Translations under genes and position numbers: made by a program
In this document: in pieces, positions 9,501 through 43,374 of the stretch
Numbering within the stretch: the stretch's first letter is position 1
How the letters are laid out: each line of letters begins with the position of its first letter
Origin: Agrobacterium tumefaciens
Lineage (GTDB): Bacteria > Pseudomonadota > Alphaproteobacteria > Rhizobiales > Rhizobiaceae
NCBI GenBank assembly: GCA_025560025.1
Contig: CP048488.1
Span: 186,001-250,000 of the forward strand
Length of the DNA stretch: 64,000 nucleotides
Direction: 5' to 3'
The notes under the pieces: model-generated
What the model saw: only the letters and a program-made list of their open reading frames with translations
Database searches by the model: none
What the model was told of the DNA's origin: nothing

Positions 9501-9979
9501 CGATTTGGTGTATCGAGATTGGTTATGAAATTCAGATGCTAGTGTAATGTATTGGTAATTAGGGAAGATATAATAGGAAGCAAGGCTATTTATCCTTTTC
9601 TGAAAGAGCAAAATGGCGTCACCGCGAGCGTCACGCGCATTCCGTTCTTGCTGTAAAGCGTTGTTTGGTACACTTTTGACTAGCGAGGCTTGGCGTGTCG
9701 GAGTATCTATTCAAAAGTCGTTAATGGCTGCGGATCAAGAAAAAGTTGGAATAGAAACAGAATACCGGCGAAATTCAGGCCCGGTTGCCATGTCCCACGC
9801 GCCGAAATAAGCCACCAAAATAGAAAATAAAAACTGACTCAGATACTTACGTCATGTCTTGCGCACTGATTTGAAAAATCTCAATATAAACAAAGACGGC
9901 CACAAGAAAAAACCAAAACACCGATATTCATTAATCTTATCTAGTTTCTCAAAAAAATTCATATCTTCCACACGTGAAA
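9501..9979. promoter_or_regulatory. mas 1'2' dual divergent promoter
   Basis: Exactly 479 bp separate the start codons of mas2' and mas1', the size of the classical bidirectional mannopine synthase promoter. On the 2' side ATAAATAG lies at 9586-9593 (minus strand), about 90 bp before the mas2' ATG. On the 1' side TATAAACA at 9885-9892 lies about 90 bp before the mas1' ATG. The TATA roles are inferred from position and sequence. Confidence 0.85.
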
Positions 9980-11272
9980 ATGCCAATTTCTCAGACCTAC
10001 CTCGGCTCTGCGAAGGCCCCCGCTGGTATCAAAAGTTTTTACTTCATCCGACATGGCGCGACCGACCTCAACGAGAAAGAAATTGTCGTGAACGGTGAGA
10101 AGCTCTGGGGCGTGCAGGGTTCCGGAACGAACATCGGTCTCAACGCGAAAGGGGAACGCCAGGCTCTGTTGGCCGGCAATGTTCTTCGGTCGCTTCCAAT
10201 AAGCGGTGTTGTCTGTTCACCGCTTTTACGTGCACTTCAGACTGCCTACATCGCTAATCCGGGCTGCCCCAGCTTCCAGATTGCAAATGATCTTCAGGAG
10301 CGGGATTTTGGTAGACACGAAGGGGGCTTCGGCCCGCTTCAAATGTTTGAGGACGACTATCCCGATTGTGAATCTACTGAAATCTTCTCAATCCGTGTCG
10401 CCAAGGCTCTCAAGCACGGATGTAGAGAAAACGTGCTTCTCGTCGCCCATGGAGGTGTACTCAGGGTTGTTGCGGCACTACTAGGGGCTGCTATAACTGA
10501 CGAGCATACCGCCAACGGGCGTGTTCTACATTTCAGTCTGGTTGCTGACAACTGGTCTGTGCGTGTAATCCAAAGTCCTGTGGTTATGGTCAGTGGCGTA
10601 ACTCGGGGCATAGGCAAGGCCATCGCAGAAGACCTTATCAGGCACGGCTATCGAGTAAGTCTGGGTGCGCGTAACATACAAGACCTGGTAGCAGCTTTTG
10701 GCGACGAGAACGAAGCTCTTCACTACGCACGTTTTGATGCACTGGATCATAGCTCGATGAAAGATTGGGTGGGCACGACCATCGCAAAATTTAACAGGAT
10801 CGATGGCTTAGTAAACAATGCTGGCTGTGGCGATCATGTTGACCTCGAGAAAGAGATCAATGTTGAGCTGCTTCAAAAGCAATGGGATATCAACTGCGTG
10901 GCCCCTCTGATCATGACAAAGCTATGCTTGCCATATCTGATTGAATCTGGTTCTGGCCGTATCGTTAATCTCAACTCAATGTCTGGCCAGCGTGTAGCGA
11001 ATTCTTTGGTTGGCTACAATATGACCAAGCATGGGCTGGCAGGCCTCACGAAAACAACTCAACATGTGGGATGGGACCATGGCGTGCGGGCCGTTGACAT
11101 ATGCCCCGGTTTCGTTGCGACTGACATGAGTTCTTGGACAAATTTGATTGGACCTGATGAGATGATCCAACCCGAGGATATAGCAAAGCTCGTTCGCGCA
11201 GCAATTGAACGTCCAAACCGTGCTTTTGTCCCCAAGAATGAGGTGCTATGCATGAAGGAATCTACCCGTTGA
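9980..11272 (+). CDS. mas1': Mannopine synthesis reductase (phosphatase-SDR fusion)
   Basis: This is the second mannopine synthesis enzyme; it reduces deoxyfructosyl-glutamine to mannopine. The ATG at 9980 gives 430 residues; a GTG two codons earlier is disregarded because the gene is read in plants. The N-terminal half (about 1-190) is a histidine phosphatase domain: catalytic [11 protein letters not shown] (about 23-33), [11 protein letters not shown] and [10 protein letters not shown]. The C-terminal half (about 195-430) is a short-chain dehydrogenase: [11 protein letters not shown] cofactor site, NNAG, the serine in LNSMSG, and YNMTK as the YxxxK catalytic pair. The SDR half resembles the plasmid SDR at 41296. 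The phosphatase half may remove a phosphate from the conjugate (inference). Confidence 0.92.
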
Positions 11273-11557: not shown

Positions 11558-12745
11558 TCAAATATCTTTGCCAAGATCAAGCGGAGTGAGGGCCTCATAT
11601 CCGGTCTCAGTTACTAGCACGGTATCCCCGAAGCGCGCTCCACCAATGCCATTGACATAGATGCCGGGCTCGACGCTGAGAACATTGCCTACCTTGAGCA
11701 CGGTCTCAGCGCCGGCTTTAAGCTCAATCCCATCCCAATCTGAATATCCTATCCCGCGCCCAGTCCGGTGTAAGAACGGGTCTGTCCATCCACCTCTGTT
11801 CACTACAGCCACTGCAGCCGCATGGACCTCACCTGCCATCACTCCCGGACGTATCGCCGACAAAGCAGCCAACTGCGCGTCACGCGCTGTTTTTATAACC
11901 TTGCGAATATCACCCGACAAGGGTTTTGAACCAACAGGGAGAGGGCGGTCGAAACAGACTGCGTGCCCACGGAACAACTGACCGCATAAGCAAACTTGTG
12001 CATGTTCGCCGTCTTGCATTATCCGGCCGCCACCGGAAGTGTGGCATCTTGCTGTTCGATCGGCACCACTACCAACCATATTTAGTTGATGAGGCCAGAA
12101 ACGTGGCAGCTCCTCATTTTCACCCAGCAATTGACCGTTTCTTTCAATGGCAGTCTGGACGCTAGCAAGGGTGACACGCCATTCACAAGTCCCGGGTGAA
12201 ATAACTTGACGGCACTGCATGAATTGGTGACCTACAATGTCGCAGCTCTGCTTGATAGCTGCAATTCCTTCTGCATCCTTGCAGGCCCAGAGATCTTGCA
12301 AGAGCAATGTCACATCCCTGACCCGCTCCGCTCCAAACGTCCGCTTAATCAATTCGAGGTTTGAACCAGACGTATAGTTATAGTCCAAACCGATCGAGCC
12401 GGTGGTCAGGCTGATACACGCAGAGAGCGCATCCTGATGTGCCATAGGACCAGCTATTTTCCGTTCCCATTCAAACCACTCCGCGGCCACCTTGGTCTCG
12501 CATCGCGCCTTTATTTCTAACGCCTCACTACGGGGCGCGACAAAAATTGGTTTTCCAGATTGATGCATCACTAACCAGACTGTCCTGCCTACCGGCAGAC
12601 CCCATAGCCCGGTAAAATAATTATGGAAGTCCGGACCAGACAAGACGATTACGTCGACCCCGGATTGCATCATCGCATTCTGCGCGCGTCGCACTCGATG
12701 GTGATATTGCTCTTGTGATGGCGAGTTTAGCTTGGACAGGTCCAT
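11558..12745 (-). CDS. ags: Agropine synthesis cyclase (M24 peptidase family)
   Basis: This enzyme closes mannopine to the lactone agropine in the tumour. Its 395 residues have the pita-bread fold layout of the M24 family (aminopeptidase P, creatinase, prolidase): an N-terminal creatinase-like domain (about 1-150) and a C-terminal catalytic domain (about 160-395) with the conserved FLHRTGRGIGY, GNVLSVEPGIY and GGARFGDTVLVTE segments. Several metal ligands of true peptidases appear replaced, in keeping with a cyclase role. It is strikingly similar to the plasmid gene at 25358-26566. It is the gene closest to the right border, as in agropine-type T-DNAs. Confidence 0.88.
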   Translation of the reverse strand: MDLSKLNSPSQEQYHHRVRRAQNAMMQSGVDVIVLSGPDFHNYFTGLWGLPVGRTVWLVMHQSGKPIFVAPRSEALEIKARCETKVAAEWFEWERKIAGPMAHQDALSACISLTTGSIGLDYNYTSGSNLELIKRTFGAERVRDVTLLLQDLWACKDAEGIAAIKQSCDIVGHQFMQCRQVISPGTCEWRVTLASVQTAIERNGQLLGENEELPRFWPHQLNMVGSGADRTARCHTSGGGRIMQDGEHAQVCLCGQLFRGHAVCFDRPLPVGSKPLSGDIRKVIKTARDAQLAALSAIRPGVMAGEVHAAAVAVVNRGGWTDPFLHRTGRGIGYSDWDGIELKAGAETVLKVGNVLSVEPGIYVNGIGGARFGDTVLVTETGYEALTPLDLGKDI

Positions 12746-18661: not shown

Positions 18662-18784
18662 GTTCGATCCTTCATCGGGACAACTGCGCATCTTCATTCG
18701 ACTGGCTATTCGGCTGCCACAAAGTGCGGCGAATGAAGCTGGAGACCCAGCCCTTTGGAATAAAGGGCTGGACAGGGTCAGCAG

Positions 18785-21385: not shown

Positions 21386-23167
21386 TCAATCACCGTCTGT
21401 CGACGGCTGTGCGAGAATGGCAATCGCGCCCGGCGTCCCGGCTGCCTTTCGACGTCGCAGCGTGAATGCCATGCCAATCATGATCACCGTGCAGGTCACG
21501 CCGAGCAGCAGTGCGGAAACAGCCGCTGATTCAGGGCTGGTATTGAAGCGAATGCCTTCCCAGAGCTTTCGTGGCAGTGTCTTGACGGAAAGGTCACTCA
21601 GGAAGATCGATGCGACCGATTCATCGAATGACAGCAGCATTGCTAGAAGACCGCCGATGGCGAGGCCGGGAAGCAACAAGGGGAAGACAACGGTGCGAAA
21701 GACGCGCCATGGATTTGCACCAAGGCTTGCCGCCGCGAGTGACAGCGCCGGATCGATTGAGCTGTAGGTTGCTGAGGCGACCAGATAAACAACCGGGAAA
21801 ATCAGCACGGTATGCGCAAGGATGATACCCATCTCAGTATCTACCAACCCCACTCGCGCGAAGGTCAAATACGCCCCCAGCGCGAAGACAACGGCCGGTA
21901 CACTAAGCGGCGACTGCACAAGTGCCTCCAGAGCGCCTTGAAACCAAAAGCGGCGCCCACCAAAGCCCAGCACGGCAAGGATTGCGAGAAGAAGGCTGAG
22001 GATGCAGGTGGCAATCCCGATCCGGAGACTGGTCAGAGCTGCGCCCATCCATTCGGAGCTGCCGAGGATCGTTTCGAACCAGCGTAGCGAAAAGCCGGGA
22101 GGCGGGAAAATGAGGACATCCGCCGAACTGAAACTGACAGGGAAGAGAATGAGCAGTGGAAGCAAGATGTACGACGATATCAACACTAGGTATATCGCTG
22201 GCACAACCGCGCTTCCCGCTCTCCACAATGATGACAGTCCGGGATTTGCTTTCGGCAACGCTACCGATCGGCGAAGCAGAGAGGTGTCCGGCTTTTCCTC
22301 TGAATGTCCCTGAGAGGTAATAGAAAGTGGGGCAGGGCGCTGCCAACGCGACAGGAAGCGGGCGACCATCGTCAGTGCTGTGACCACGATCGTCGCAACG
22401 ATGGCAAGCGTTATGCCAAGGGCCGCGGCCATGGCCCAATCCGCACCCGTCTCGATCTCCGATTGGATAACCTGTGCAAGCATTTGCTGCCTTTGGTTAC
22501 CCAAAAGTGCCGGCGCTATGAAGCTCGCGATCGTGAAAAGGAAGGTGATGATGACGCCCGATTGAATGCCACGGATCGACAGCGGAACAACCACTCCCAG
22601 CCAGGCGCGTAGCGGGTTAGCGCCAAGTGTATTTGCTGCGAGCAGAATACGTCCGTCGATACGTCGTAGGACTGTGACGAGCGAGAAAACCATCATTGGA
22701 ATGGAGGAATGCACGAGCGCCAGCACAACAGCAGGCTCGCTGAACAACAATGGGAGCGGCTCTGAGATGAGGCCAAGACTGAGCAGTGTTCCGTTGACAA
22801 GGCCGCGCTGGCCGAGGATCGCGATCCAGGCGAACGTGCGCACCAGAACACTCGTCAGAAAAGGAACAAGCACCAACAATCCGAGAAGGAGCGCCTTTAT
22901 ACCGGTTGCCCGGCTGAGGAACCATGCAAGCGGATACGAGATCACCAGTGTTATTGCGGTCGCTTCAAGGCTTATGCGTACGGTCGTCCAGGTAATTTTA
23001 AGATAGACTGAGCCTGCGAATATGCGCATGAAGCGCGCCACAGCGTCGCCGCCAAAGGCTTGTGGCACTATTGCGAGCAGTGGAATGAAGAAGGCGAGGA
23101 GCAAGAGCACAAAAACGGGCACCAGCAGTAAAGTTTGACCCCGGTTCGCAAGTAAATTCTGTTTCAT
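21386..23167 (-). CDS. Fused two-domain ABC permease, opine uptake
   Basis: These 593 residues contain both permease subunits of a polyamine/iron-type importer in one chain. The N-terminal domain (about 1-280) has the contact loop LLAANTLGANPLRAWLGVVVPL, and the C-terminal domain (about 320-580) repeats it as LAAASLGANPWRVFRTVVFPL. The other operon (15.8-17.5 kb) uses two separate proteins, so this is a distinct transporter lineage. It is the last gene of a leftward operon that starts with the deglycase at 28473 and includes kinase, M24 enzyme, ATPase and binding protein. Agropine or mannopine is the probable cargo, judging by the operon. Confidence 0.88.
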   Translation of the reverse strand: MKQNLLANRGQTLLLVPVFVLLLLAFFIPLLAIVPQAFGGDAVARFMRIFAGSVYLKITWTTVRISLEATAITLVISYPLAWFLSRATGIKALLLGLLVLVPFLTSVLVRTFAWIAILGQRGLVNGTLLSLGLISEPLPLLFSEPAVVLALVHSSIPMMVFSLVTVLRRIDGRILLAANTLGANPLRAWLGVVVPLSIRGIQSGVIITFLFTIASFIAPALLGNQRQQMLAQVIQSEIETGADWAMAAALGITLAIVATIVVTALTMVARFLSRWQRPAPLSITSQGHSEEKPDTSLLRRSVALPKANPGLSSLWRAGSAVVPAIYLVLISSYILLPLLILFPVSFSSADVLIFPPPGFSLRWFETILGSSEWMGAALTSLRIGIATCILSLLLAILAVLGFGGRRFWFQGALEALVQSPLSVPAVVFALGAYLTFARVGLVDTEMGIILAHTVLIFPVVYLVASATYSSIDPALSLAAASLGANPWRVFRTVVFPLLLPGLAIGGLLAMLLSFDESVASIFLSDLSVKTLPRKLWEGIRFNTSPESAAVSALLLGVTCTVIMIGMAFTLRRRKAAGTPGAIAILAQPSTDGD

Positions 23168-23191: not shown

Positions 23192-24220
23192 TTATTGCAT
23201 GATGTACGTGGCCCACTCGGCCTTCACCGAGTCGTAGTTGTCGTTCCACCACTTCGAGTTGAGAACGGCGCTTACTTTGGCGTTAGCCGGGTAGCTTGGC
23301 AGATCCTTGGCAACAGCCGGGTCAAGGAGTCTCAGCGCATCGACGTTGGTCGGGCCGTATGCGATCACGCGCGTGAGTTCGGCCTGTTGTTCGGCTTGAG
23401 CGGCGAAATTGATGAACTTCATCGCTTCACCTGCATTCCGGGCACCCTTGGGTACTGCCCAGTATTCGGTATCGGCAAGGGCGCCTTCCCAGGTATAACC
23501 CCAATTTGCCCCTGCCTTGATGGCGTTCTTGATACGCCCTGTGCCAGCGTAAACCATGTCGGCCTCACCCTGCTGCATGAGAGCCTGGATGTCGGATGCG
23601 CCCTTGTAACCGATGACCTGATCTTTCACCCGGTCAATGACTTTCAAGGCGCGTTGCACGTCGAGAGGATAGAGATCGGCCGGCTTCACGCCGTCTCCCA
23701 TCAGCGCAAATTCAAGAGAGTAGGTTGCATCAGACGGGAGGACACGCCGGGCCTTTACGCTCGGGTCAAAAAATTGAGCCGGAGTGACTTCGTTCGGAAA
23801 CTTGTCCTTGTTCCATGCGAGGTTGGTCCCGAAAACCATGTAGCCAACGCCGTATTTGGTGCGGAAATTTTCCGGAATGTTATCGGCCTTTACGACCGAG
23901 TAATCGATCGGCTCAAGCAGGCCGTCCTTCACCTCACTCGCGAAGGCAGGGCTCTCGGCGGAGATCACGTCCCAGGTGACATTGCCGCTCTCTACCATGG
24001 CTTTGACCTTGGCATATCCGGTACCAGTGGTACCGGTTACCTTGACCCCACTCGCCTTGGCATACGGGTCGAAATAGGCCTTTGTCTGCGCTTCCTGAAA
24101 GGAACCTCCGTAAGAGGAGATAACGAGGTCGGCGGCAGATGCGGCGCCCGAAAGCATGATGACACCGGTGGCAGCAAGCAAAGTGGTCGAGATGCGCTTG
24201 AAGAATGTGGTCGAATTCAT
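23192..24220 (-). CDS. Periplasmic binding protein (PotD type), opine uptake
   Basis: This 342-residue periplasmic solute receptor has a signal peptide ending GAASA and a mature start DLVISSYGGSFQEAQTKAYF, typical of the PotD/spermidine-type family. It sits between the ATPase gene and the fused permease gene in the long leftward catabolic operon. Its ligand is probably the opine degraded by the neighbouring M24, kinase and deglycase enzymes (inference). It resembles the receptor at 18785 in its N-terminal motif, but it has a different set of permease partners. Confidence 0.88.
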   Translation of the reverse strand: MNSTTFFKRISTTLLAATGVIMLSGAASAADLVISSYGGSFQEAQTKAYFDPYAKASGVKVTGTTGTGYAKVKAMVESGNVTWDVISAESPAFASEVKDGLLEPIDYSVVKADNIPENFRTKYGVGYMVFGTNLAWNKDKFPNEVTPAQFFDPSVKARRVLPSDATYSLEFALMGDGVKPADLYPLDVQRALKVIDRVKDQVIGYKGASDIQALMQQGEADMVYAGTGRIKNAIKAGANWGYTWEGALADTEYWAVPKGARNAGEAMKFINFAAQAEQQAELTRVIAYGPTNVDALRLLDPAVAKDLPSYPANAKVSAVLNSKWWNDNYDSVKAEWATYIMQ

Positions 24221-24275: not shown

Positions 24276-25361
24276 TCATCCTTCTGTCGGAAGAATTGCG
24301 ACGGACGCCGGCGGCCACTGCGCGATGACGGCCGCACCAGGAGTAAGGCTCCCGGCAAGATCATCTCCACGCATGACGTTGGCGAGCAGGGACTGCCCGT
24401 CGGATAGTTGCAAGGCGACACGCCAGCCAGCACCGAGGTAGGTCACATCCCGGATCGTGGCGGAAACGCCGAATGAGCTTTCTGTTGAAGGTTTCAATGG
24501 CGAGAGGATCGTCACGTTCTCGGGTCTGACGACGATATCGAACGGTCCGTCTGCCGGGGACGGCAGCGCCTGACGTGCACCGCCGATCTCATAACCCTTG
24601 CCTCCGTCCGTGCCACTTACCCGAAGGATCGAACATTCCCCGATGAAGCGTGCCACAAAGTGGTTGGACGGATGAGCGTAGATTGTCTCCGGGTCGGCGA
24701 CCTGAAGCAGCTTTCCACCGGACATAATGCCGATCCGGTCAGCCATGGCCATCGCTTCCGATTGGTCATGGGTGACGTAGATAACCGTGATGCCAAGCTC
24801 ATGCTGAATTCGCTTCAGTTCCTGCTGCATCTGGTCACGGAGCCGCCGGTCGAGGGCGCCAAGGGGTTCATCCATAAGGAGAATGGAAGGACTGAAAACC
24901 AGAGCTCGCGCGAGTGCAACACGTTGTTGCTGCCCCCCAGACATTTGTATTGGATATGACGCTCCGCGGTCGGTCAGATTAACCAGGCTGAGAGCGGCCT
25001 TAACCCTCTCTTCTCGTTCGCTGCGCCCAACACCGCGCATTCTAAGGGGGTACGCGACATTTTCAGCCGCGGTCAAATGCGGAAAAAGTGCATAGTTCTG
25101 GAAGACTACACCGATCTGCCGCCGATGTGGCGGCACGTCTGAAACAGGTGTACCCGACATCAGAACACGGCCCTCCGTCGTCCTTTCGAACCCCGCCAGC
25201 AGCATAAGGAGGGTTGTCTTCCCGGAACCGCTCGATCCGAGCAGGGCAAAGAATTCTCCCTGCGCGATATCCAGGCTGACCTTATCAACGGCAGTGACAG
25301 GACCATAGCGGCGCGTCACAGCCTGAAACGAGACGGCGGGTAGCGGCTGGTCGTTCATCAC
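24276..25361 (-). CDS. ABC transporter ATPase (PotA type)
   Basis: This is the ATPase of the second polyamine-type importer, 361 residues. Walker A is LLGSSGSGKTTLL, the signature is MSGGQQQRVALARA, Walker B is ILLMDEPLGALD, and the H-loop is IYVTHDQSEA; a TOBE-like C-terminal domain follows. Its ATG overlaps the stop of the M24 gene by 4 bp, so the two are translationally coupled, tying the transporter to the opine-opening enzyme. Confidence 0.9.
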   Translation of the reverse strand: MMNDQPLPAVSFQAVTRRYGPVTAVDKVSLDIAQGEFFALLGSSGSGKTTLLMLLAGFERTTEGRVLMSGTPVSDVPPHRRQIGVVFQNYALFPHLTAAENVAYPLRMRGVGRSEREERVKAALSLVNLTDRGASYPIQMSGGQQQRVALARALVFSPSILLMDEPLGALDRRLRDQMQQELKRIQHELGITVIYVTHDQSEAMAMADRIGIMSGGKLLQVADPETIYAHPSNHFVARFIGECSILRVSGTDGGKGYEIGGARQALPSPADGPFDIVVRPENVTILSPLKPSTESSFGVSATIRDVTYLGAGWRVALQLSDGQSLLANVMRGDDLAGSLTPGAAVIAQWPPASVAILPTEG

Positions 25362-26566
25362 ACGTCCCTACCAAGCTCGAATGGTGTCAGGACCTCATAA
25401 CCACTGTCGGTGACAAGCACGGTGTCACCGAAACGGGCACCACCGATACCATCGACGTAGATCCCAGGTTCGACGCTGAGGACCATACCGGCTTGGAGTT
25501 GAACGGCGGAGTTCGCCTTGAGTTCAATGCCGTCCCAGTCGGAATATCCAATTCCCCGGCCCGTTCGATGCAAAAACGGGCTGTCCCAACCGCCCTGTTC
25601 AATAACGTCGACGGCGGCTGCATGGACCTCGCCAGCAGTGACGCCGGGTCGGATTTTCGCCAAAGCAGCTTCCTGAGCTCGACGAGCGAAATCGACTACC
25701 TTGCGAAGCTCAGCAGAGAGCGGCTTCGAACCGACGGCGATAGGTCGGTCGAAACAAACTCCGTAGCCTGCGAAGACTTGGCCACAAAGGCAGATCTGCA
25801 CATTCTCGCCGTCATTCATGATCCGACCACCACCAGAGCAGTGGCAACGAGCAGTGCGTTCAGGACCACTTCCGACCATGTTCATCTGGTGCGGCCAGAA
25901 TCTGGGCTGTTCCGCGTCGTTACCCAGAAACTCAGCGCTCCGCTTGATAGCAGCCGTAAGCGAGGCAAGCGTAACCTGCCATTCTGCGGCGCCAGGTGTG
26001 ATGGCTTGACGAGCGGCGGCGTACTGATGCCCGACAATATCTGTCGCCCGACGAATACCATCGATGACGACAGCATTCTTGAGAGCAAGCTGATCACGCA
26101 AAAAGGATGTTGCATCCTTTATGCGTTCGGAGCCAAGAACCTGTCTCACCAGTTCGATGTTGGAAGCCCAGGTTGAGTTGAAGTCGACGCCGATCGCCTG
26201 AGCATGAGGTGCGATCTCGCCGATGTACTTCGCGAGAGCGTCCTGATGGGACATCGGCGCAGGTATCGGTTCTTCCCATTCGACCCATTCAGCTTCGACA
26301 GGTGTCGTGCATCTCGCTCTGATCTCCTTGGCTTCGCTGCGAGGGGAAACGAACGCCGGCTGTCCTTGCTGTTCAAACACCAGCCAGATCGGCCTGCCGA
26401 TCGGAAGACCGTTCAGGCCGGTGAAGAAGCGCAGGTAATCGAAGCCGGAGATGGCAAGAATATCAATGGCGGCATGCTTCATCGCCGCCTGGGTGCGCTC
26501 AATGCGATTGCGATACTCCGCGTCGGATGGAAATTTCAGTTCTGACGTCTCAGGGTTTTGATACAT
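25358..26566 (-). CDS. agcA: Agropine catabolic cyclase/lactonase (M24 family)
   Basis: This is a bacterial M24-family enzyme closely related to the T-DNA ags protein: for example FDRPIAVGSKPLSAELRKV here against FDRPLPVGSKPLSGDIRKV in Ags, and FLHRTGRGIGYSDWDGIELK in both. By analogy with AgcA of agropine plasmids it should open agropine back to mannopine in the cytoplasm. The ATG at 26566 (MYQNPETSEL, 402 residues) is preceded by GGGGA; a TTG four codons earlier is possible. It is the third gene of the leftward operon, after the deglycase and kinase genes, and is coupled to the transporter ATPase. Confidence 0.85.
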   Translation of the reverse strand: MYQNPETSELKFPSDAEYRNRIERTQAAMKHAAIDILAISGFDYLRFFTGLNGLPIGRPIWLVFEQQGQPAFVSPRSEAKEIRARCTTPVEAEWVEWEEPIPAPMSHQDALAKYIGEIAPHAQAIGVDFNSTWASNIELVRQVLGSERIKDATSFLRDQLALKNAVVIDGIRRATDIVGHQYAAARQAITPGAAEWQVTLASLTAAIKRSAEFLGNDAEQPRFWPHQMNMVGSGPERTARCHCSGGGRIMNDGENVQICLCGQVFAGYGVCFDRPIAVGSKPLSAELRKVVDFARRAQEAALAKIRPGVTAGEVHAAAVDVIEQGGWDSPFLHRTGRGIGYSDWDGIELKANSAVQLQAGMVLSVEPGIYVDGIGGARFGDTVLVTDSGYEVLTPFELGRDV

Positions 26567-26619
26567 TGCATTCCCCAACTTGTTATTTTGATACTCGCAA
26601 GCCTTAAATCGACTTGACG

Positions 26620-27438
26620 TTAAGCCGGTATCTCTCGTGTGATGGTGCGTGCGTGGCCGAATGCGCCACGTGTACCGCAGATGTGCGCCGCATATTGCGC
26701 TCCGTCGCTGGCGGCGTCCTTAAGCGATGCTCCAGTCAGCACGCGGCACACGAGCCGGCTGAGAAACGCGTCTCCAGCCCCAAGCGTGTCAACTGCATCG
26801 ACCGGAACCGCAGGCGCAAAGAGCACATTGCCCTTGTGGCAAACCGTAGCGCCCCGAGCCCCTTGCGTTACAGTCACGAGCTCGACGCCTGCCGAAAGGG
26901 CCGTGTCCAGAACGTGTTTCACTTCATCATCGCTGGCATTCGATCTGGAGAACGCCGCCACCTTGACGTAGGGCAAGACGTCTGCGGCATAATCCAGACT
27001 GCGATCGGAGAAGTCGAAGGAGATCGCAACGCGCTCCCTGATCTCAGGGAGCTGACTATCAAGCTGGCTCGTTTCCCCGGTGTGAGCAAGGTCGAAGCCG
27101 GCCAGATATTCGAGATCGGCACTGTCGAGTTTGAACATCGAAACGCCTTTCTCGCACAGACCCCAGACGCGATTGTTGCCGTCGTCATCCATGTGCACCG
27201 TTGCGAAAGCGTTCGGCCCCTCCTTGACTCGCAGACGTGTGAGTTCAACACCCTCCGCCTGCAAGCTGGATCGAATGAGATCGCCATCGGAATCGGTGCC
27301 AATGACACCGAGATAAGCGGCACTTAGTCCACTGCGCTGGGCGTGGACGGCAAAGTTTACCGCGTTGCCGCCCGGGAACATGAGCTTCTGATTGAAATAC
27401 CGGTCGACAACATTGTCACCCACGCCACAAACACGCAT
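26620..27438 (-). CDS. PfkB-family sugar kinase (fructoselysine kinase-like)
   Basis: This is a ribokinase/PfkB-family kinase of 272 residues. It has the N-terminal FPGGNAVNFAVHA substrate segment (about 22-34) and the C-terminal DTLGAGDAFLSRL motif with the catalytic aspartate (about 222-234). Size and motifs fit FrlD, which phosphorylates the 6-position of fructosamine (Amadori) compounds. It lies 9 bp downstream of a FrlB-like deglycase, the same pairing as in fructoselysine operons. The likely substrate here is deoxyfructosyl-glutamine formed from mannopine (inference). In the octopine moc region this slot holds mocE, related to the phosphatase half of Mas1. Confidence 0.82.
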   Translation of the reverse strand: MRVCGVGDNVVDRYFNQKLMFPGGNAVNFAVHAQRSGLSAAYLGVIGTDSDGDLIRSSLQAEGVELTRLRVKEGPNAFATVHMDDDGNNRVWGLCEKGVSMFKLDSADLEYLAGFDLAHTGETSQLDSQLPEIRERVAISFDFSDRSLDYAADVLPYVKVAAFSRSNASDDEVKHVLDTALSAGVELVTVTQGARGATVCHKGNVLFAPAVPVDAVDTLGAGDAFLSRLVCRVLTGASLKDAASDGAQYAAHICGTRGAFGHARTITREIPA

Positions 27439-27447
27439 TTGACGACC

Positions 27448-28473
27448 TCAGTAAGTTGTTTTGAACATGTATCGGCGATCGTTTAGGTCGTGACCTGTGA
27501 CGGCTTGATAGTGCTCGGCCAGTCGCCTCGACAATGTCGAAAGGAGAAGAGGCGTAATTTCCCCGCGCACCGACGCTGGAACGCCTGGAAGGCTATAGTC
27601 CTTCGAGTCCACGACACGGCAGCGCTGGGTGTTCTTGGTAAGAAATGTCTCGACCCGATCGATTATGGCGCGGGTATCGTCCTCGCCCTTGAACAGGAGG
27701 ACAGGGGTATCAGGCTGAACGACTTCAAAAGCACCATGCAGGAACTCGTTGGCGTTGAACCACGAGGCGTGCTTCCACTGCATTTCCATGAGGTAGCACA
27801 TGGCGAAGCCATAGCCGGCGCCCTGATTGGGACCAGCGGAGAGCACATAGGTGAGGGGTTCGGAACCGAAGGCGACCGCCGTTTCGTGAAGATTAGCCTC
27901 AGCTTCTTCGATCGCCTTTTCAAAAGCAGCAGGAACGGCCGCATAAGCCTGTTCGATTGCCGCATAGTCGAGTTCGGCGCCGGTTTCTCGAAGGAGGGCC
28001 GTCACCACCATGCCGACGAGCAATTGCTTCGGCGCCAGAATGGTCCGGTCGCTATTGTAGGTAAACACGTCATCGCACTCGGCAGCGAGCGGTGTCGTCT
28101 CATTCTTGGTAAATCCGATGACACGGGCGCCGACTGAACGGCAATGGCGAGCTGCCTCGATCGTTTCTTTCGTCGTACCATTATGTGAGGCGACGAGAAC
28201 GACGGAATCTGCGGAGAGCAGTGCCGGCGAACGGCGGTTGAACTCTTCACTGTTGAAGTGGAAGGTCGGGATTTTCGCGCTGCGATCGCACCTGTAGGCA
28301 GCCGCCGAGAAGTCATTGTACGAACCGCCGCAGCCGATCAGGAAAATATTTCGCGCGCCCTTTGCAGCCGCTTTGACAACCTCTGCGATCCTTTCTCGCT
28401 GGGTCAGGGCCGCTTCGATGGTGCTGCGGAATTCGGGATCGGGAGAGACGAGATTTGGGTAGTTGGTCATCAT
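27448..28473 (-). CDS. SIS-domain Amadori 6-phosphate deglycase (FrlB-like)
   Basis: This is a sugar isomerase-domain protein of about 341 residues from the ATG at 28473 (MMTNYPNLVSPDPEF). The first lobe reads IFLIGCGGSYNDFSAAAY and VVLVASHNGTTKETIEAA, the phosphosugar loops. The ending GHDLNDRRYMFKTTY is typical of FrlB-type fructosamine-6-phosphate deglycases, which split the phosphorylated Amadori compound into glucose 6-phosphate and amino acid. It is related to the T-DNA Mas2, but only distantly. It is the first gene of the leftward operon, 25 bp after the nearest LacI-type operator. Confidence 0.83.
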   Translation of the reverse strand: MMTNYPNLVSPDPEFRSTIEAALTQRERIAEVVKAAAKGARNIFLIGCGGSYNDFSAAAYRCDRSAKIPTFHFNSEEFNRRSPALLSADSVVLVASHNGTTKETIEAARHCRSVGARVIGFTKNETTPLAAECDDVFTYNSDRTILAPKQLLVGMVVTALLRETGAELDYAAIEQAYAAVPAAFEKAIEEAEANLHETAVAFGSEPLTYVLSAGPNQGAGYGFAMCYLMEMQWKHASWFNANEFLHGAFEVVQPDTPVLLFKGEDDTRAIIDRVETFLTKNTQRCRVVDSKDYSLPGVPASVRGEITPLLLSTLSRRLAEHYQAVTGHDLNDRRYMFKTTY

Positions 28474-28497: not shown

Positions 28498-28527
28498 TGA
28501 GCGCGCTCTCATGTGACACCGGTCTCA
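28498..28527. promoter_or_regulatory. Tandem LacI-type operators between SIS and lacI genes
   Basis: Two 14-bp near-palindromes, TGAGCGCGCTCTCA (28498-28511) and TGACACCGGTCTCA (28514-28527), lie 16 bp apart centre to centre in the divergent promoter of the deglycase operon and the LacI-type gene. The central CG and symmetric TGA/TCA ends are typical of LacI-family operators. A second pair with the same spacing is at 29775-29804. Confidence 0.7.
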
Positions 28528-28612: not shown

Positions 28613-29719
28613 ATGAAGACAAGTGAACGCGCGAACTCTCAGCCGACAGTGAGCGACGTTGCGCGCGCAGCCGGGGTTTCGCGCGCAACGGCAGCGCGGG
28701 TGCTGGGCGGATATGGGTACGCCGGATCGGAGGCGCGCGAACTGGTTCTCGATGCGGCCAAACGGCTGGCTTATCAACCGAACCAACTCGCTCGAAGTAT
28801 GGCGACCGGCCGCACCAAGACCATCGGTGTGGTGGTTGCCGATATCGAGAACCTGTATTTTGCAAGGGCTATCCGGGCGATTACGGATACTGCGAACGCG
28901 AACGGTTTCGATGTCGTTTTGGCAAACACCGACGAAAATGTTGAGCTCGAGCGCTCCGCAGTCCGGGTCATGCTGGCCAAACGAGTTGATGGATTGATTG
29001 TCTCACCAGCGTCAAGCGTCGACGTCGATCATCTCGTTGAAGCGCGTAACTTGGGTTGCCCGTTCGTACTTCTCGACAGGCGTGTGCCTGTTCTAAAGGC
29101 GGATACGGTTGCGATCGATAACTTTCCGGCGGCTCGTGAGGCGGTAGGGACGTTCGTCAGGTCAGGCCACAAGCGCATCGCGTTGGTCTCAAATTCAAGA
29201 TTTGAAGGTGGTCAGAAGTATCTGACGTCACCCGTTCGCGAGCGCTTGGAGGGCTACAAGGCTGCGCTTCACGACGCGGGAATCCAGAACGACCCAAAGC
29301 TTGCCCTCTTCGGCGGCGGCAATAATGAACAGCTTGCGCAAAAGCTGCGCAAGCTTTGCCAAAGCGATGAGCGCCCAACCGCATTCCTGGCGGTGACAAG
29401 CGCGGTAGCCTTGGTGATCCTTGGTGTTTTAAGAGACGTTGGCCTGAGCGTTCCCGATGACGTGTCTCTGATATGCTTTGAGAATGCGGATTGGACGGTT
29501 GCCGTTACTCCTCCCCTGACCGTCATCGCGCAACCGATAAAAGAACTGGCATCAGCGGTGACCGAACGACTCATTGCTCGGCTTCAGGGCGATCTAAAGA
29601 GCCAGGCCAAAGAGACCCTGCTTTCGGCGACGCTGATTAGCCGTGGCTCGGTTAGCATCCCGCAGCTTTTCGAAAGCAGGGGACGCGACACGGGTAATAC
29701 GCCGCCGTCCACCTCCTGA
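28613..29719 (+). CDS. LacI-family regulator (MocR-like)
   Basis: This is a 368-residue LacI/GalR-type repressor. The helix-turn-helix PTVSDVARAAGVSRATAARVL occupies about residues 10-30, the hinge helix motif NQLARSMATGRT follows near 55, and a periplasmic-binding-like effector domain fills the rest. It is divergent from the catabolic operon and 86 bp from the operator pair there, so it probably represses both directions until an opine or its phosphate binds. It is closely similar to the LacI protein at 33696. In octopine plasmids mocR and mocS are such a related pair flanking the moc genes. Confidence 0.88.
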   Translation: MKTSERANSQPTVSDVARAAGVSRATAARVLGGYGYAGSEARELVLDAAKRLAYQPNQLARSMATGRTKTIGVVVADIENLYFARAIRAITDTANANGFDVVLANTDENVELERSAVRVMLAKRVDGLIVSPASSVDVDHLVEARNLGCPFVLLDRRVPVLKADTVAIDNFPAAREAVGTFVRSGHKRIALVSNSRFEGGQKYLTSPVRERLEGYKAALHDAGIQNDPKLALFGGGNNEQLAQKLRKLCQSDERPTAFLAVTSAVALVILGVLRDVGLSVPDDVSLICFENADWTVAVTPPLTVIAQPIKELASAVTERLIARLQGDLKSQAKETLLSATLISRGSVSIPQLFESRGRDTGNTPPSTS

Positions 29720-29894: not shown

Positions 29895-30641
29895 ATGAAA
29901 CTGCAAGGCAAAACCGCCGTCGTCACAGGCGCTGGCCGCGGCATTGGGCGTGCGACCGCCCTGGAGCTGGCCAAGGAAGGCTGCAATGTCGTCCTGGCTG
30001 CGATCGAACTCAACGAAGTCGAGGCAGTAGCTGCCGAGATCCGCGCAATCGGCCCCGAGGCACTGGCCGTGCGGACCGATGTGCAGCATAAATCCGAGGT
30101 AGATGCCTTGGCGAAAGCGGCGTTCGACCGGTTCGGCGCAGTCGATATTCTCGTGAACAACGCCGGCGTGGCGATCCATAACACCATCCCGAACATCAAG
30201 GAAGCTGATTGGGACTGGATGATGGCCATCAACCTCAAGGGCACGTTCCTATGCACACAAGCATTCTTCCAGCACATGTGCGATCGGCGTCATGGCCATA
30301 TTATTAACGTCGTTTCGCGTGCTGGTAAGGTCGCCTCCGCCAAGTTCGGCGCTTACGCTGCTTCGAAATTTGGAATGCTTGGATTCACCCAGACCACGGA
30401 CCAGGAAGGTATTGAGTTCGGCGTTAAGGCAACGGCGGTTTGCCCAGGTGCCGTTGATACCCAGCAGCGCTCCGATAATCACATCGATGACCGTTCGCAA
30501 CTGCTCCAGCCCGAGGACGTTGCAGAGTACATTGCGTTCATCGTCACCAGGCACGACCGCGTCTACATCGGTGAAGTGTCACCGATCGCACAGCAACTAA
30601 AACCACTTCCGGGCAGCGGCTGGCTCAAGCCAGGCATTTAA
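29895..30641 (+). CDS. Short-chain dehydrogenase/reductase (SDR)
   Basis: This is a classical 248-residue SDR: cofactor site TGAGRGIGRAT (about 12-22), NNAGVA, catalytic serine in NVVSRAGK, and YAASK as the YxxxK pair. It occupies the position of mocC in the octopine moc cluster but is not of the Mas1/MocC-like type, lacking its YNMTK and SLGAR segments. It could oxidise mannopine or a sugar intermediate. It is followed after 26 bp by the 6-phosphogluconate dehydratase gene and is probably in one operon with it and the aldo/keto reductase. Confidence 0.78.
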   Translation: MKLQGKTAVVTGAGRGIGRATALELAKEGCNVVLAAIELNEVEAVAAEIRAIGPEALAVRTDVQHKSEVDALAKAAFDRFGAVDILVNNAGVAIHNTIPNIKEADWDWMMAINLKGTFLCTQAFFQHMCDRRHGHIINVVSRAGKVASAKFGAYAASKFGMLGFTQTTDQEGIEFGVKATAVCPGAVDTQQRSDNHIDDRSQLLQPEDVAEYIAFIVTRHDRVYIGEVSPIAQQLKPLPGSGWLKPGI

Positions 30642-30667: not shown

Positions 30668-32488
30668 ATGTCCGTTCATACCACCATTCAAGCTGTGACA
30701 GGCCGCATAGCGGCACGAAGCGCGCAATCGCGTCAAAATTATCTTGAGCTTATCGAGGCGCAGAGAAAGGGTGGCGTACATCGTTCCGCGCTGTCTTGTG
30801 GCAACCTGGCTCACGGCTTCGCCGCATGCTCGTCGTCCGAAAAGGCGATGCTGAGCGGATCGGAAGCACTGAATCTTGGCATTGTCACCTCCTATAATGA
30901 CATGTTGAGCGCCCATCAGCCCTACGGCACCTATCCGGACATCATCAAGGCTGCAGCCCACGCGGTGGGCGCGACTGCGCAGATCGCTGGTGGTGTGCCG
31001 GCAATGTGTGACGGGGTCACGCAGGGGCAGCCTGGAATGGACTTATCGTTATTTAGCCGTGACGTGATCGCGATGTCCACCGCGATCGCGCTCAGCCATA
31101 ATATGTTCGATGCTGCGGTATACCTTGGGGTCTGCGACAAGATCGTTCCAGGGCTTCTTATCGGAGCGCTGTCCTTCGGCCATCTTCCTGCGGTCTTTGT
31201 ACCGGCAGGCCCCATGACATCGGGCCTCTCGAATGATGAGAAAGCGCGCATTCGCCAGCTTTCATCGGAGGGTAAGATCGACCGCGCGCGGTTGCTCGAC
31301 GCCGAGGCGAAGTCTTATCATTCGCCTGGCACATGCACCTTCTACGGCACTGCGAACTCCAACCAGATGCTCATGGAAATCATGGGGCTTCATATCCCGG
31401 GTTCGAGCTTCGTCAACGCGAACACATCCTTGCGCGAAGCCCTCACCCGTGAGGCAACTCGTCGTGCGCTTTCGCTGACAGCCGGAGGAAAAAACTATAC
31501 ACCGATCGGTCACATCATCGATGAGAGGTCGATTGTAAACGGTATTGTGGGATTACTTTCGACCGGCGGCTCCACAAATCATACGCTTCACATCATCGCA
31601 ATTGCACAAGCAGCCGGACTGCATGTCACCTGGCAAGACATGAGCGATCTCAGCGATGTTGTGCCACTTCTAGCGCGTGTCTATCCAAATGGCTCTGCCG
31701 ACGTGAACCATTTCCACTCCGCCGGAGGCATGGGCTTTCTAATCCGCGAATTGATCGACGGCGGCTTCCTGCACGAGGACGTCGATACGATCTGGGGAAG
31801 AGGTCTTCGAAAATATGCGGTCACACCAGGGCTAGAGGGTAACGAGGTGGTGTTTCACCGGACATCCCTGGCGTCGAGTAATCCAAAGGTGCTTGCGCCG
31901 GTCAGCCACGCATTCTCCCCGAACGGTGGATTGAAGTTGCTGTCGGGCAATATTGGCAAGTCAGTCATCAAGGTCTCTGCCGTCAAGCCGGAGAACCGCG
32001 TCATCGAAGCGCCAGCACGTGTATTCCATGCTCAGGAAGAGCTTCAGCAAGCGTTCCGCAACGGTGAACTCGATGGCGATCTTATTGCCGTCGTCCGGTT
32101 CCAGGGGCCGAGATCAATCGGCATGCCCGAACTCCACAAACTCACTCCGGCGCTTGGTGTATTGCAAGATCGAGGCTTCAAGGTTGCATTGGTCACCGAC
32201 GGACGGATGTCGGGTGCCTCGGGCAAGGTTCCGGCCGCGATCCATATCACGCCGGAAGCTTCGGATGGCGGTGCTATTGCCAAAATTCGCGATGGCGACC
32301 TCATTAAGCTGGATGCCAACGTGGGCACATTGACTTTCCTCGGAGATGAGGAGGAGTTCCACGCGCGTCCGGCCATAAGCCACGATCTTCGGTCGCAACA
32401 GCATGGCACTGGTCGCGAGCTTTTCGCTCGCTGTCGATCGTTGGTCAGCTCAGCTGATCAAGGCGCCAGTATTCTCGGTAGCTTTTAG
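30668..32488 (+). CDS. mocB: 6-phosphogluconate dehydratase (Edd/MocB type)
   Basis: This is an IlvD/Edd-family iron-sulphur dehydratase of 606 residues, the length of Entner-Doudoroff Edd. Conserved features include the cysteine segments [20 protein letters not shown] (about 116-135) and [12 protein letters not shown], the [14 protein letters not shown] stretch, and the late [18 protein letters not shown] motif. It converts 6-phosphogluconate to 2-keto-3-deoxy-6-phosphogluconate. In octopine plasmids mocB encodes the same type of enzyme within mocRCBAS, and its place here between an SDR and a LacI gene matches. It would channel opine-derived glucose 6-phosphate into the Entner-Doudoroff path. 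Confidence 0.9.
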
Positions 32489-32511: not shown

Positions 32512-33576
32512 ATGGAGTATCGCTTATTAGGGCGTTCAGGCCTCAAGGTGTCGACCTTGACTATTGGTACGATGACCTTTGGTGGCGTCGGCTGGGCAAA
32601 AACTGTCGGCGATCTTGGCGTACCAGAGGCGAAGCGACTTGTGGATCTCTGCCTTGATGCCGGGGTCAACTTGATCGACACGGCCGATGTCTATTCCGAC
32701 GGCAAGTCCGAAGAGATTGTCGGCGATATTCTCGGCGGAAAGCGCAAAGGCAGCACGTTGATCGCCACAAAAGCGCGCTTTAACATGGGGCCGGGTCCGA
32801 ACGACGGGGGTCTGTCGCGTCAATATCTGATCGCAGCGTGTGAGGCGAGCCTGAAAAGGCTGAAGACCGACGTCATCGACCTTTACCAGGTTCACGAATG
32901 GGATGGGCAGACACCATTGGAAGAAACAATGGAAGCCCTCGATACCCTCGTTCGCCAAGGGAAGGTCAGATACATCGGCTGCTCGAATTTCACGGGCTGG
33001 CAGATCATGAAGGCGCTCGGCGTCAGTGAGAAGGATAAACGTCAGCGTTTTGTAAGCCAGCAGATCCATTACACCCTCGAAGCGCGCGATGCCGAATATG
33101 AACTGTTGCCGATTTCCGTCGACCAGGGCATCGGCGTGCTTATCTGGAGCCCGCTTGCGGGCGGCCTGCTTTCCGGAAAGCACCGCCGCGACCGAGCGGC
33201 TCCAGAAGGCAGCCGCCAGTTTGCTGGCTGGACCGAGCCGCCGATCCGCGACGAAAACCGCCTCTGGAATATCGTTGATACGCTGGTATCGATTGCTGAG
33301 GGCCGCGGCGTTTCTGCGGCTCAGGTTGCACTGGCTTGGCTGTTGGGCCGCAAGGTTGTTACCTCAGTTATCATCGGTGGACGAACTGAGGCGCAGTTTA
33401 AAGACAATCTCGCGGCTGCTGATCTGAAGCTTTCGAACGAAGAACGAGAACGGCTCGATGAGGTCAGTATTCCCCCCTTGCTCTATCCTTACTGGCACCA
33501 GCGCAACAATGCAGCAGACAGGCTGAGTGAGGCAGATCTCGAATTGCTCTCACCTCATCTGAGGAAGAAGTCTTAA
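32512..33576 (+). CDS. Aldo/keto reductase
   Basis: This is a 354-residue NADP-dependent aldo/keto reductase with a strong ribosome site (GAGGAGG) before the ATG. The catalytic tetrad is visible: D in NLIDTADVYSDGKSEE (about 50-65), Y in DVYS, K in LIATKARF and H in YQVHEWDG. The late motif SVIIGGRTEAQFKDNLAA binds the cofactor. It stands where mocA (a glucose 6-phosphate dehydrogenase-like gene) is found in octopine moc clusters, so it may oxidise or reduce a sugar-derived intermediate. A closely related but broken copy lies at 54687-55734. Confidence 0.85.
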   Translation: MEYRLLGRSGLKVSTLTIGTMTFGGVGWAKTVGDLGVPEAKRLVDLCLDAGVNLIDTADVYSDGKSEEIVGDILGGKRKGSTLIATKARFNMGPGPNDGGLSRQYLIAACEASLKRLKTDVIDLYQVHEWDGQTPLEETMEALDTLVRQGKVRYIGCSNFTGWQIMKALGVSEKDKRQRFVSQQIHYTLEARDAEYELLPISVDQGIGVLIWSPLAGGLLSGKHRRDRAAPEGSRQFAGWTEPPIRDENRLWNIVDTLVSIAEGRGVSAAQVALAWLLGRKVVTSVIIGGRTEAQFKDNLAAADLKLSNEERERLDEVSIPPLLYPYWHQRNNAADRLSEADLELLSPHLRKKS

Positions 33577-33695: not shown

Positions 33696-34823
33696 GTGAA
33701 AGATGACAATCAATGTCAGGACCGCAGCATCGCCCAAGATGATACGCCCGAAACTAAGAATTTCATCGCTGAAAAAGGTCGCGGAAGTGCTGCTCCGACG
33801 ATAGCCGATGTTGCGCGCGCATCGGGTGTCTCGCGCGCGACGGCTGCGAGGGTTCTCGGTGACTATGGCTATGTCCGTGCGCAAACGCGGCAACTGGTTC
33901 AGGAGGCTGCCACGAGCTTGGCGTATCAACCCAATCAGCTTGCAAGAAGCATGGCCACCGGTCGCAGTAAGACAATCGGTGTCGTGATAGCCGATATTGA
34001 GAACTTGTATTTTGCTCGGGCTATCCGAGCCATTACGGATACAGCTAGCTCACACGGTTTTGTCGTGATCCTGGCGACGACGGACGAGGATATTGAACTC
34101 GAGCGAGATGCGGTGCGCGTTCTCCTAGCGAAGCGCGTCGATGGATTGATCATTTCACCGACCTCAAGCAGTGAGGTAGAGCATCTTGTAAACGCGTCCG
34201 GGAGAGACTGTCCGATTGTTCTTCTGGACAGACGGGTCCCCGTGCTTTCCGCTGACACCTTCGCGATCGACAATTTCCGTGCAGCCTATGAGGCCGTGAC
34301 CACACTCATCGGACGAGGCCACAGGAGTATCGCCCTAGTGTCAAACGCTCCAGCACATGGCGAGCAGCATTACCTCATTTCGTCGGTTCGCGAGCGCATC
34401 GACGGTTACCGCGCAGCTTTGCATGATGCTGAAATACCGATCGCTCCCGAACTGGTAGTTTTGGGCGGCTGGGATCCAGGCAATCTGGCGCAACAAGTGC
34501 GCGTGCTATGCAGTTCTTCAGATCGTCCTACTGCCTTTTTGGCTACAGACAGCTCGGTGGCCCTGGTTCTCCTCGAGGTCGTCCGGGAAATGAACCTTTC
34601 GATTCCCGACGATATTTCCCTCATTTGCTTCGATAATGCTGACTGGACCGCCGCGACCACTCCTCCGCTGACAGTGATTTCACAGCCCATAAAGGAGCTC
34701 GCGACCGCGGCCACGGAAGATCTGATCGCCCGTTTGAACGGTGAGGCTACCAACTCTGCAAAAGAGGTGCTTCTTCCAGCGACCCTAGTGGCGCGCGGTT
34801 CGGTTGGCGATGCCCCGTACTAA
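33696..34823 (+). CDS. LacI-family regulator (MocS-like)
   Basis: This is a 375-residue LacI-type regulator that probably starts at a GTG (33696), since no in-frame ATG precedes the DNA-binding domain. Helix-turn-helix PTIADVARASGVSRATAARVL is at about residues 34-54, followed by YQPNQLARSMATGR and an effector domain. It is very similar along its length to the LacI protein at 28613, so the pair arose by duplication, like mocR and mocS. The N-terminus is about 23 residues longer. It closes the mocRCBAS-like series. Confidence 0.87.
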   Translation: MKDDNQCQDRSIAQDDTPETKNFIAEKGRGSAAPTIADVARASGVSRATAARVLGDYGYVRAQTRQLVQEAATSLAYQPNQLARSMATGRSKTIGVVIADIENLYFARAIRAITDTASSHGFVVILATTDEDIELERDAVRVLLAKRVDGLIISPTSSSEVEHLVNASGRDCPIVLLDRRVPVLSADTFAIDNFRAAYEAVTTLIGRGHRSIALVSNAPAHGEQHYLISSVRERIDGYRAALHDAEIPIAPELVVLGGWDPGNLAQQVRVLCSSSDRPTAFLATDSSVALVLLEVVREMNLSIPDDISLICFDNADWTAATTPPLTVISQPIKELATAATEDLIARLNGEATNSAKEVLLPATLVARGSVGDAPY

Positions 34824-41022: not shown

Positions 41023-41295
41023 ACGTCATCCGATCTGCGATAGGCTCTCCGGTGCCGGAGAGTTCGTTCCCATTGTTATAGGGTGCTTTTTGCACTTATC
41101 AGTCGCGATTAAGGCATAAATCGCCAAACATCGTCAAGTGATCGTCCACATATCTGACAGAAACTTTTCATTTGTGGAGTTTTCTGACGTTTTTCTGTAA
41201 ATTTCTATCAGACGCCGCTTGTCATAAATCCAAAGCGCGCTTACCGTCGCAGCGAAACACACGAGTAATCAGTGGTCGTGGCCGGAGGATCAGCA
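41023..41295. promoter_or_regulatory. Divergent promoter, importer and SDR-oxidase operon
   Basis: These 273 bp hold the promoters of two divergent opine operons. The AT-rich centre (about 41080-41210) contains TGACGTTTTTCTG at 41185-41197. Very similar 13-mers occur twice at 48957-48969 and 49018-49030, in front of the ridA-deoR genes and the second importer. This is the best candidate for a shared operator. Confidence 0.5.
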
Positions 41296-42006
41296 ATGCA
41301 ACCAATCAATTCCCGTGTCGTAATGATCTCAGGAGCAGCGCGTGGCATCGGTCTAGCCATTGCCCGTGAGTTAGCGGAGCACGGATTCCGCCTCAGTCTT
41401 GGCGCACGCGACATCAAGATGCTGGAAGCTCATTTCGGCCTCCAGAGCGATCAGGTGCATTACGCTCACTACGATGCCTATGATCCAGCGTCCGCGGAAT
41501 CCTGGGTTTCCTCCGCCGTTGACAGGTTTGGAAGGATCGATGCGCTCGTGAACAATGCCGGACTCGGCGAGCAAGTCTCCCTCATGGACGACAACGACGA
41601 GGCGCTCGACAGGCTGTGGGCAGTCAATGTCAAAGGCCCCCTCCGGATGACGCGCTTGTGCATGCCGCATCTGGAAGCCTCCTTATCAGGCCGCATCGTC
41701 AATCTCGCGTCGATGTCAGGCAAGCGGGTTCGAAATTCCTTCGTCGGATACAACATGACGAAGTTCGCGGTGATGGGCCTGACCCACACGACACGTCATG
41801 TAGCTTGGGAAAAGGGTGTGCGCGCCACTGCGATATGTCCGAGCTTCGTTCGCACCGAGATGAGTTCCTACACGAATAAGGTCAGCCCGGACGACATGAT
41901 CGAGCCCGACACGCTGGCATCACTCGTCCGGACCGCGATTGAGCTTCCAAACAATGCTGCAATGGCTGAGATGCTGGTGAACTGCCGGCTCGAAGACACA
42001 CTTTGA
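41296..42006 (+). CDS. SDR oxidoreductase related to Mas1/MocC
   Basis: This 236-residue SDR starts at an ATG preceded by GGAGG. It resembles the reductase half of the T-DNA Mas1 throughout: SGAARGIGLAIARELAEHGF against [20 protein letters not shown], and VGYNMTKFAVMGLTHTTRHV against [20 protein letters not shown]. The catalytic serine (ASMSG) and YNMTK are intact. It is thus the likely bacterial mannityl-opine oxidoreductase (MocC type), oxidising mannopine or mannopinic acid to the deoxyfructosyl form. It heads an operon with the FAD oxidase and the hydantoinase-like subunits and is not in the moc block. Confidence 0.83.
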   Translation: MQPINSRVVMISGAARGIGLAIARELAEHGFRLSLGARDIKMLEAHFGLQSDQVHYAHYDAYDPASAESWVSSAVDRFGRIDALVNNAGLGEQVSLMDDNDEALDRLWAVNVKGPLRMTRLCMPHLEASLSGRIVNLASMSGKRVRNSFVGYNMTKFAVMGLTHTTRHVAWEKGVRATAICPSFVRTEMSSYTNKVSPDDMIEPDTLASLVRTAIELPNNAAMAEMLVNCRLEDTL

Positions 42007-43338: not shown

Positions 43339-43374
43339 TACGCTTGCTGGACCTTGGCCAAAGAGGGTGAAACC

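Follow-up and report, generated by a model that had tools for sequence, protein, structure and literature searches.

The adjacent PfkB-family kinase and SIS-family protein genes of the window (the whole 64,000-nucleotide stretch of Agrobacterium tumefaciens DNA that was analysed, lying on contig C4 of a four-contig genome) are mocE and mocD themselves, the normal genes for this slot, and no phosphatase has been replaced by them. Very probably they are ordinary agropine/mannopine-Ti genes that encode a deoxyfructosyl-glutamine (DFG) 6-kinase and a DFG-6-phosphate deglycase, and that form a module which has been exchanged on other plasmids. This biochemical reading is likely, judging from the relatives of the two proteins, whereas the contrast with octopine plasmids drawn by the first-pass annotation of this DNA is unfounded. 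The premise of a replacement on the window plasmid is hence corrected, and the DFG step of mannopine breakdown can be described at the level of its enzymes in a form open to testing.

The mocE and mocD genes and their neighbourhood

Over the 24 kb around mocDE, several Ti plasmids of Agrobacterium, many of them from walnut, have an identity of 100.0% (rounded value) to the window; NZ_CP048484 and pTi_CFBP2692 (NZ_KY000027) are examples. The gene content of the left part of the window is that of T-DNA, with mas2, mas1 and an Ags-type gene. The M24-fold protein next to mocE is of the AgcA type, to which the literature assigns the conversion of agropine to mannopine. Two further ORFs located in 43354-47078, after an FAD oxidoreductase gene, resemble (by eye and by the annotation of pAoF64/95) a hydantoinase/oxoprolinase pair, which presumably would open the lactam of agropinic acid.

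Table 1. Genes of the window referred to in the text
Gene or product	Position	Strand	Basis or remark
mas2: SIS protein, deglycase fold, catalytic Glu/His kept	8418..9503	-	possible TTG start 9611
mas1: histidine-phosphatase half (about residues 1-200) fused to SDR reductase half	9974..11272	+	
ags: M24-fold protein	11558..12745	-	
ABC transporter permease, 593 aa, presumed opine uptake	21386..23167	-	
ABC transporter substrate-binding protein, presumed opine uptake	23192..24220	-	
ABC transporter ATPase, presumed opine uptake	24276..25361	-	
M24-fold protein, AgcA-type	25358..26578	-	60% identity to T-DNA Ags
mocE: PfkB-family fructosamine (DFG) 6-kinase, predicted	26620..27438	-	Pfam, NCBIfam, kinase tree, pAoF64/95 naming
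mocD: SIS-family fructosamine-6-phosphate deglycase, predicted	27448..28473	-	families, solved-structure matches, trees
LacI-family regulator, mocR position	28613..29719	+	divergent from mocDE
mocC: SDR	29895..30641	+	
mocB: phosphogluconate dehydratase (Edd)	30668..32488	+	1001 bits vs curated cut-off 708
mocA: aldo/keto reductase	32512..33576	+	
LacI-family regulator, mocS position	33696..34823	+	
SDR of second opine-acid cluster	41272..42006	+	nearer Mas1 reductase half (55%) than MocC (28%) is

Both ORFs are intact, which bears out the earlier description of a PfkB kinase with DTLGAGDAF and an adjacent SIS protein in divergent position. MocE (272 aa) matches Pfam PF00294 at 2.2e-31 and has DTLGAGD from residue 217, that is, the PfkB fold with its GAGD catalytic motif. 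The mocD gene, with an ATG at 28473 and an alternative start at 28512, encodes a protein matching PF01380 at 2e-22. The two genes are separated by 9 nt and are transcribed divergently from the LacI-type gene starting at 28613.

The top NCBIfam model for MocE is fructoselysine 6-kinase (PRK09813; 5.2e-51, 173.6 bits against a curated cut-off of 247). As this score is under the cut-off, we placed MocE in the wider group of Amadori kinases and not as FrlD itself, although in many such plasmids the kinase already bears the RefSeq label "fructoselysine 6-kinase". For MocD the top model is fructoselysine-6-phosphate deglycase (the FrlB equivalog PRK11382; 5.1e-30, 104.8 bits against a cut-off of 430). 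Among solved structures, MocD matches the fructose-amino-acid-6-phosphate deglycase of B. subtilis (3EUA) at 1.1e-48 and Salmonella FraB at 1.5e-45. The catalytic Glu was assigned from the PDB title "FraB ... E214A Mutant" (9OTU) and the alignment of that chain; in the numbering of the 341-aa form, the catalytic Glu and His of MocD are E230 and H246, and the phosphate loop SxxGxTxE is kept as S96-G99-T101-E103. All 50 sequences of the SIS tree described below have the Glu, and 43 of them the His, which is Gln in the remaining 7.

Proposed route of mannopine breakdown

In the route that we propose, MocC oxidises mannopine to DFG, the one step already published (excerpts of PMC6341043 and PMC4231840). 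MocE would then use ATP to phosphorylate DFG at C-6, MocD would cleave DFG-6-phosphate into glucose 6-phosphate and glutamine, and glucose 6-phosphate would feed the Entner-Doudoroff route, of which the cluster has its own Edd (MocB). The kinase and the deglycase would be inherited as one module, other Agrobacterium plasmids having another lineage of both enzymes.

Homology, family mechanism, the genetics of mocC and mocD, and Edd together make mannopine > DFG > DFG-6-phosphate > glucose 6-phosphate + glutamine the best reading. As to the mechanism, kinases of this type act on C-6 of the Amadori product and the deglycases yield glucose 6-phosphate and the amine (excerpt of PMC12632257; a further source is an excerpt of PMC4941530). 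As to the genetics, the available part of PMC6341043 reports that a mocC mutant of pAoF64/95 is unable to form DFG from mannopine, and that a mocD mutant still converts mannopine to DFG but has lost DFG degradation; these mocD data concern the pAoF64/95 lineage of the pair and not that of the window. MocB is a true Edd by the curated cut-off, in keeping with a glucose 6-phosphate product, but on pRiA4 and pQ15_94_4 the space separating mocC from mocA is too small for edd, so that Edd is not obligatory. A match to MocE (E 1e-5) was present within the retrieved stretch at 74 of the 80 loci that hold the best 80 of 442 MocD relatives, and at a distance of up to 250 nt at 51 of them. The kinase/deglycase route that the first-pass annotation had predicted for DFG thus stands as far as homology and gene context go, while both proteins remain under the NCBIfam equivalog cut-offs.

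By analogy with fraB (excerpt of PMC4941530), a strain lacking the deglycase and retaining the kinase is expected to be sensitive to DFG. The portions of the literature available mention no poisoning by DFG for the mocD mutant of pAoF64/95; a polar effect of the kanamycin-marked deletion could have masked it. In the literature searched we found no printed statement of a kinase/deglycase route for mannopine, nor any paper joining mannopine with fructoselysine or with a deglycase. The available part of PMC6629968 refers in one sentence to a frlB/fabG cluster of strain 1D1609, without a tie to opines there.

A different emphasis, to which we give clearly less than even credence, is that the pair acts just as much on other Amadori compounds, namely fructosyl-amino acids of plants or soil, and that mannopine use was a later addition through mocC. 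It is compatible with the route above. Loci of the type mocR-mocDE-M24-transporter, with mocDE at 77-83% identity and with no match to mocC, mocB or mocA (E 1e-5) within 6 kb on each side, occur in Rhizobium skierniewicense and Mesorhizobium sp. CA8 (from the best 80 of 442 relatives). A Streptomyces mirabilis plasmid, on which SIS, kinase pieces and M24 follow one another in the same order, provides the nearest outgroup. The M24 proteins of the Rhizobium and the Mesorhizobium share 82% identity; each is 64-66% identical to that of S. mirabilis and 53-57% identical to AgcA (47-50% for S. mirabilis). Taking into account these mocCBA-free loci and the M24 identities, a stand-alone Amadori module probably predates mannopine use. 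Against an equal service to other compounds, all 7 clusters of this type that were examined on Ti, Ri or catabolic plasmids hold the pair together with mocC and the M24 gene.

The M24 proteins of R. skierniewicense and Mesorhizobium sp. CA8 form a subgroup apart from AgcA. On the S. mirabilis plasmid (NZ_CP108478, 12001-15038 of the retrieved stretch), a SIS protein 52% identical to MocD is followed by PfkB in frame-broken pieces and by M24, which is the order mocD-mocE-agcA. As to the wider distribution, the genome of the window and that of alphaproteobacterium G231 were the only two among 385 from the class to give a kinase match at E 1e-30; in 297 genomes of the family, 29 had a kinase match, and only three, the window's own genome included, reached at least 83% identity.

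It is very unlikely that the pair handles free sugar instead, the SIS protein being a phosphosugar isomerase and the kinase phosphorylating a released hexose. The PfkB and SIS folds do also occur in fructokinases and sugar-phosphate isomerases; MocD, however, groups with the FrlB/FraB deglycases in the trees, and structures of glucosamine-6-phosphate synthase (GlmS, compared by score and not as a tree row) match it at 6.6e-8 or weaker. Moreover, no enzyme of the cluster is known to release sugar from DFG beforehand, and DFG degradation on pAoF64/95 requires mocD (excerpt of PMC6341043).

The slot on other plasmids and the origin of its enzymes

The kinase and deglycase genes occupy the same slot on the octopine Ti plasmid NC_002377, where a kinase annotated as fructoselysine 6-kinase lies beside the SIS gene (89.7 and 91.2% identity to the window pair, respectively). 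Across NC_002377, pTiBo542 and pRiA4 identities are 84-91%, and pQ15_94_4, pTiCG920 and pTiQ15_94 likewise have this pair in this slot. The shared position is upstream of, and divergent from, mocR-mocCBA and adjoining the AgcA-type gene. When PLSDB was searched at E 1e-20, matches were obtained in 323 records for the kinase and 403 for the SIS protein; kinases of at least 81.5% and SIS proteins of at least 79.8% identity come from an identical set of 47 records, the next best being at 51-52%, and in all 47 the aligned kinase and SIS ends are 12 nt apart. The annotation of NC_002377 splits the LacI gene at the mocR position (18398-19484 of the retrieved stretch) into two overlapping ORFs, where pTiCG920 has a single one.

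It had been claimed that octopine mocD is a close relative of mas2' and octopine mocE of the phosphatase half of mas1'. Neither holds for NC_002377: its MocD is only 22-23% identical to Mas2, as distant as MocD of the window (23% to T-DNA Mas2, in this case as had been noted), and a search of the plasmid with the Mas1 phosphatase half has T-DNA Mas1 itself as sole match. That a kinase and a FrlB-type deglycase have specially replaced, on this plasmid, a Mas2-like conjugase and a phosphatase of octopine plasmids has next to no likelihood and is refuted for the plasmids deposited: it agrees with the account of Kim and Farrand, who in 1996 reportedly saw in MocE a relative of the amino half of Mas1, but the pair lies side by side in NC_002377 and 46 more records, a Mas1-type phosphatase match occurs at one place only per record in 87 of 87 records (E 1e-5), and MocE has no BLAST match to the Mas1 phosphatase half at E 1e-4. 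Nor does the kinase stand "instead of" MocE, since a moc-type kinase is found in 50 of the 51 plasmid records that have a full-length Mas1 phosphatase half (45 of the window type, 5 of the pAoF64/95 type), and the SIS protein lies inside the MocD clade. This is the outcome that the first-pass annotation had itself named as refuting its proposal. The sole record without either kinase type is NZ_KY000074, whose best kinase match over the whole record is 16 bits; its annotated mas1 has 1083 nt, as against 1299 nt for that of the window, and is followed by IS66 genes. The name itself can be checked on pAoF64/95 (NC_019555), where a PfkB kinase gene lies 497 nt before the LuxR-type gene (tmsP). As the available part of PMC6341043 locates tmsP some 500 nt downstream from mocE, the gene named mocE in the literature is the PfkB kinase gene.

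On pAoF64/95, MocC, MocB and MocA are 86, 81 and 87% identical to those of the window, but MocD only 31% and MocE 41%, and the genes in these positions are again a deglycase-type SIS gene and a PfkB kinase gene. Kinase and deglycase were thus exchanged together, while the mocCBA block stayed as it was.

We built SIS trees from a family sample of plasmid records and a genome scan (best 80 of 442 relatives). A first tree had 66 rows (120 thinned at 75% identity); removal of 17 (long branches, near-duplicates, thinning) and addition of one G231 row gave the 50-row tree used here, in which GlmS was left out and the seven Gln-for-His rows were retained. The MocD proteins of Ti and Ri plasmids, including that of the window, form one clade (100/100), next to the S. 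mirabilis plasmid protein (100/99), amid largely actinobacterial proteins. MocD of pAoF64/95 and pTi_AR125 groups with a Klebsiella protein annotated as FraB, an Enterococcus protein and proteins of Bacillales (100/99), and T-DNA Mas2 with Terrarubrum flagellatum and alphaproteobacterium G231 (100/99). The kinase tree agrees for both MocE types (Ti MocE 99, with the S. mirabilis piece 83; pAoF64/95 MocE with Bacillales 96); it was a quick tree of 61 of 91 rows with SH-aLRT only, and its placement of the Terrarubrum kinase is without support. As read from the trees, at least three deglycase lineages and module exchange are a new part of the evolutionary picture.

Constrained groupings were rejected by the AU test: MocD with Mas2 as one clade (p 6.6e-6), a hypothesis from the literature; window MocD with pAoF64/95 MocD (p 1.3e-48), picked after the scores were seen; and pAoF64/95 MocD with Mas2 (p 8.9e-9), picked after the trees. 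The Mas1 reductase half and MocC as one clade were likewise rejected (p 2.1e-4, with 18 rows only and a long-branch warning).

The mas and moc genes are said, in work of 1996, to be two copies of one ancestral set. Our trees challenge this idea, other bacterial proteins being nearer to Mas2 and to the Mas1 reductase half: by sequence, neither is closest to MocD or MocC. Ags and AgcA, in turn, do resemble a close pair (60%). The trees point to separate recruitment of the plant-made and the bacterial enzymes of the mannopine chain. At the C-terminus, a part modelled with low confidence, all 3 Mas2 proteins of the alignment have L-L-H in place of R-R-Y, whose first R and Y the 47 other rows all retain.

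Several observations touch on the relatives of the T-DNA enzymes. A cluster on plasmid NZ_CP091854 of Terrarubrum flagellatum (7966-12312 of the retrieved stretch) comprises SIS, PfkB, RidA, FAD oxidoreductase and SDR genes; its SIS protein is the first non-T-DNA relative of Mas2 among the matches listed (32%), and its SDR is 44% identical to the Mas1 reductase half. The pAoF64/95 orthologue of the SDR of the second opine-acid cluster is 83% identical to that of the window, and NC_002377 outside mas1 has no match to the Mas1 reductase half as close as this SDR. Nopaline-type Ti plasmids, e.g., NC_003065, have a Mas1-like SDR half at 62-64%, with about half of the phosphatase half matched.

We know of no assigned role for the Mas1 phosphatase half. 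It is under purifying selection in T-DNA (dN/dS 0.12 to 0.21, pTiBo542 mas1 not included), and this conservation makes synthesis via phosphorylated intermediates plausible. Tentatively, and with confidence just short of even, we suggest that synthesis and breakdown of mannityl opines may be one phosphorylated Amadori chemistry run in opposite directions, each side recruited separately. In the plant, Mas2 would act as a reversed deglycase, forming DFG-6-phosphate from glucose 6-phosphate and glutamine; the Mas1 phosphatase half would render this step irreversible, and its SDR half would reduce DFG to mannopine. The bacterial mirror would be oxidation by MocC, phosphorylation by MocE and cleavage by MocD. 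The T-DNA set would have been drawn from a Terrarubrum-like kinase/deglycase/SDR cluster and not from moc, with at least three deglycase lineages overall. If this is true, the Mas1 phosphatase half gains a concrete, testable role. Tobacco cultivars expressing mas2' produce DFG according to excerpts of PMC5606197 and PMC8262997, which argues against the Mas1 phosphatase being strictly required.

Comparison with known systems

FrlB and FrlD of B. subtilis belong to the same deglycase and kinase families as MocD and MocE, and the best solved relative of MocD is 3EUA. DFG, too, is an alpha-glycated amino acid like the substrates of the B. subtilis pathway for such compounds. Nevertheless, Bacillaceae deglycases are only 32-36% identical to MocD (retrieved loci, best 80 of 442 relatives), the Frl system has another transporter and regulator, and on Ti plasmids the Amadori compound is first made by an SDR (MocC). 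Salmonella FraB/FraD, acting on fructose-asparagine, have the same order of kinase and then deglycase, and the MocD Glu aligns with E214 of FraB; here it is MocD of pAoF64/95 that groups with a FraB-annotated Klebsiella protein (96/89), whereas MocD of the window falls in a mainly actinobacterial clade.

The Soc system of pAtC58 (SocD amadoriase) shares its substrate, DFG, with MocE and MocD, and is an FAD oxidase route with no kinase. The soc gene names follow an excerpt of PMC4231840. T-DNA Mas2 lies on a separate branch from MocD, and the partner domain in Mas1 is a phosphatase, not a kinase. Finally, MocD and MocE of the octopine Ti plasmid are orthologous and syntenic with those of the window (91 and 90%, respectively), with no difference of substance.
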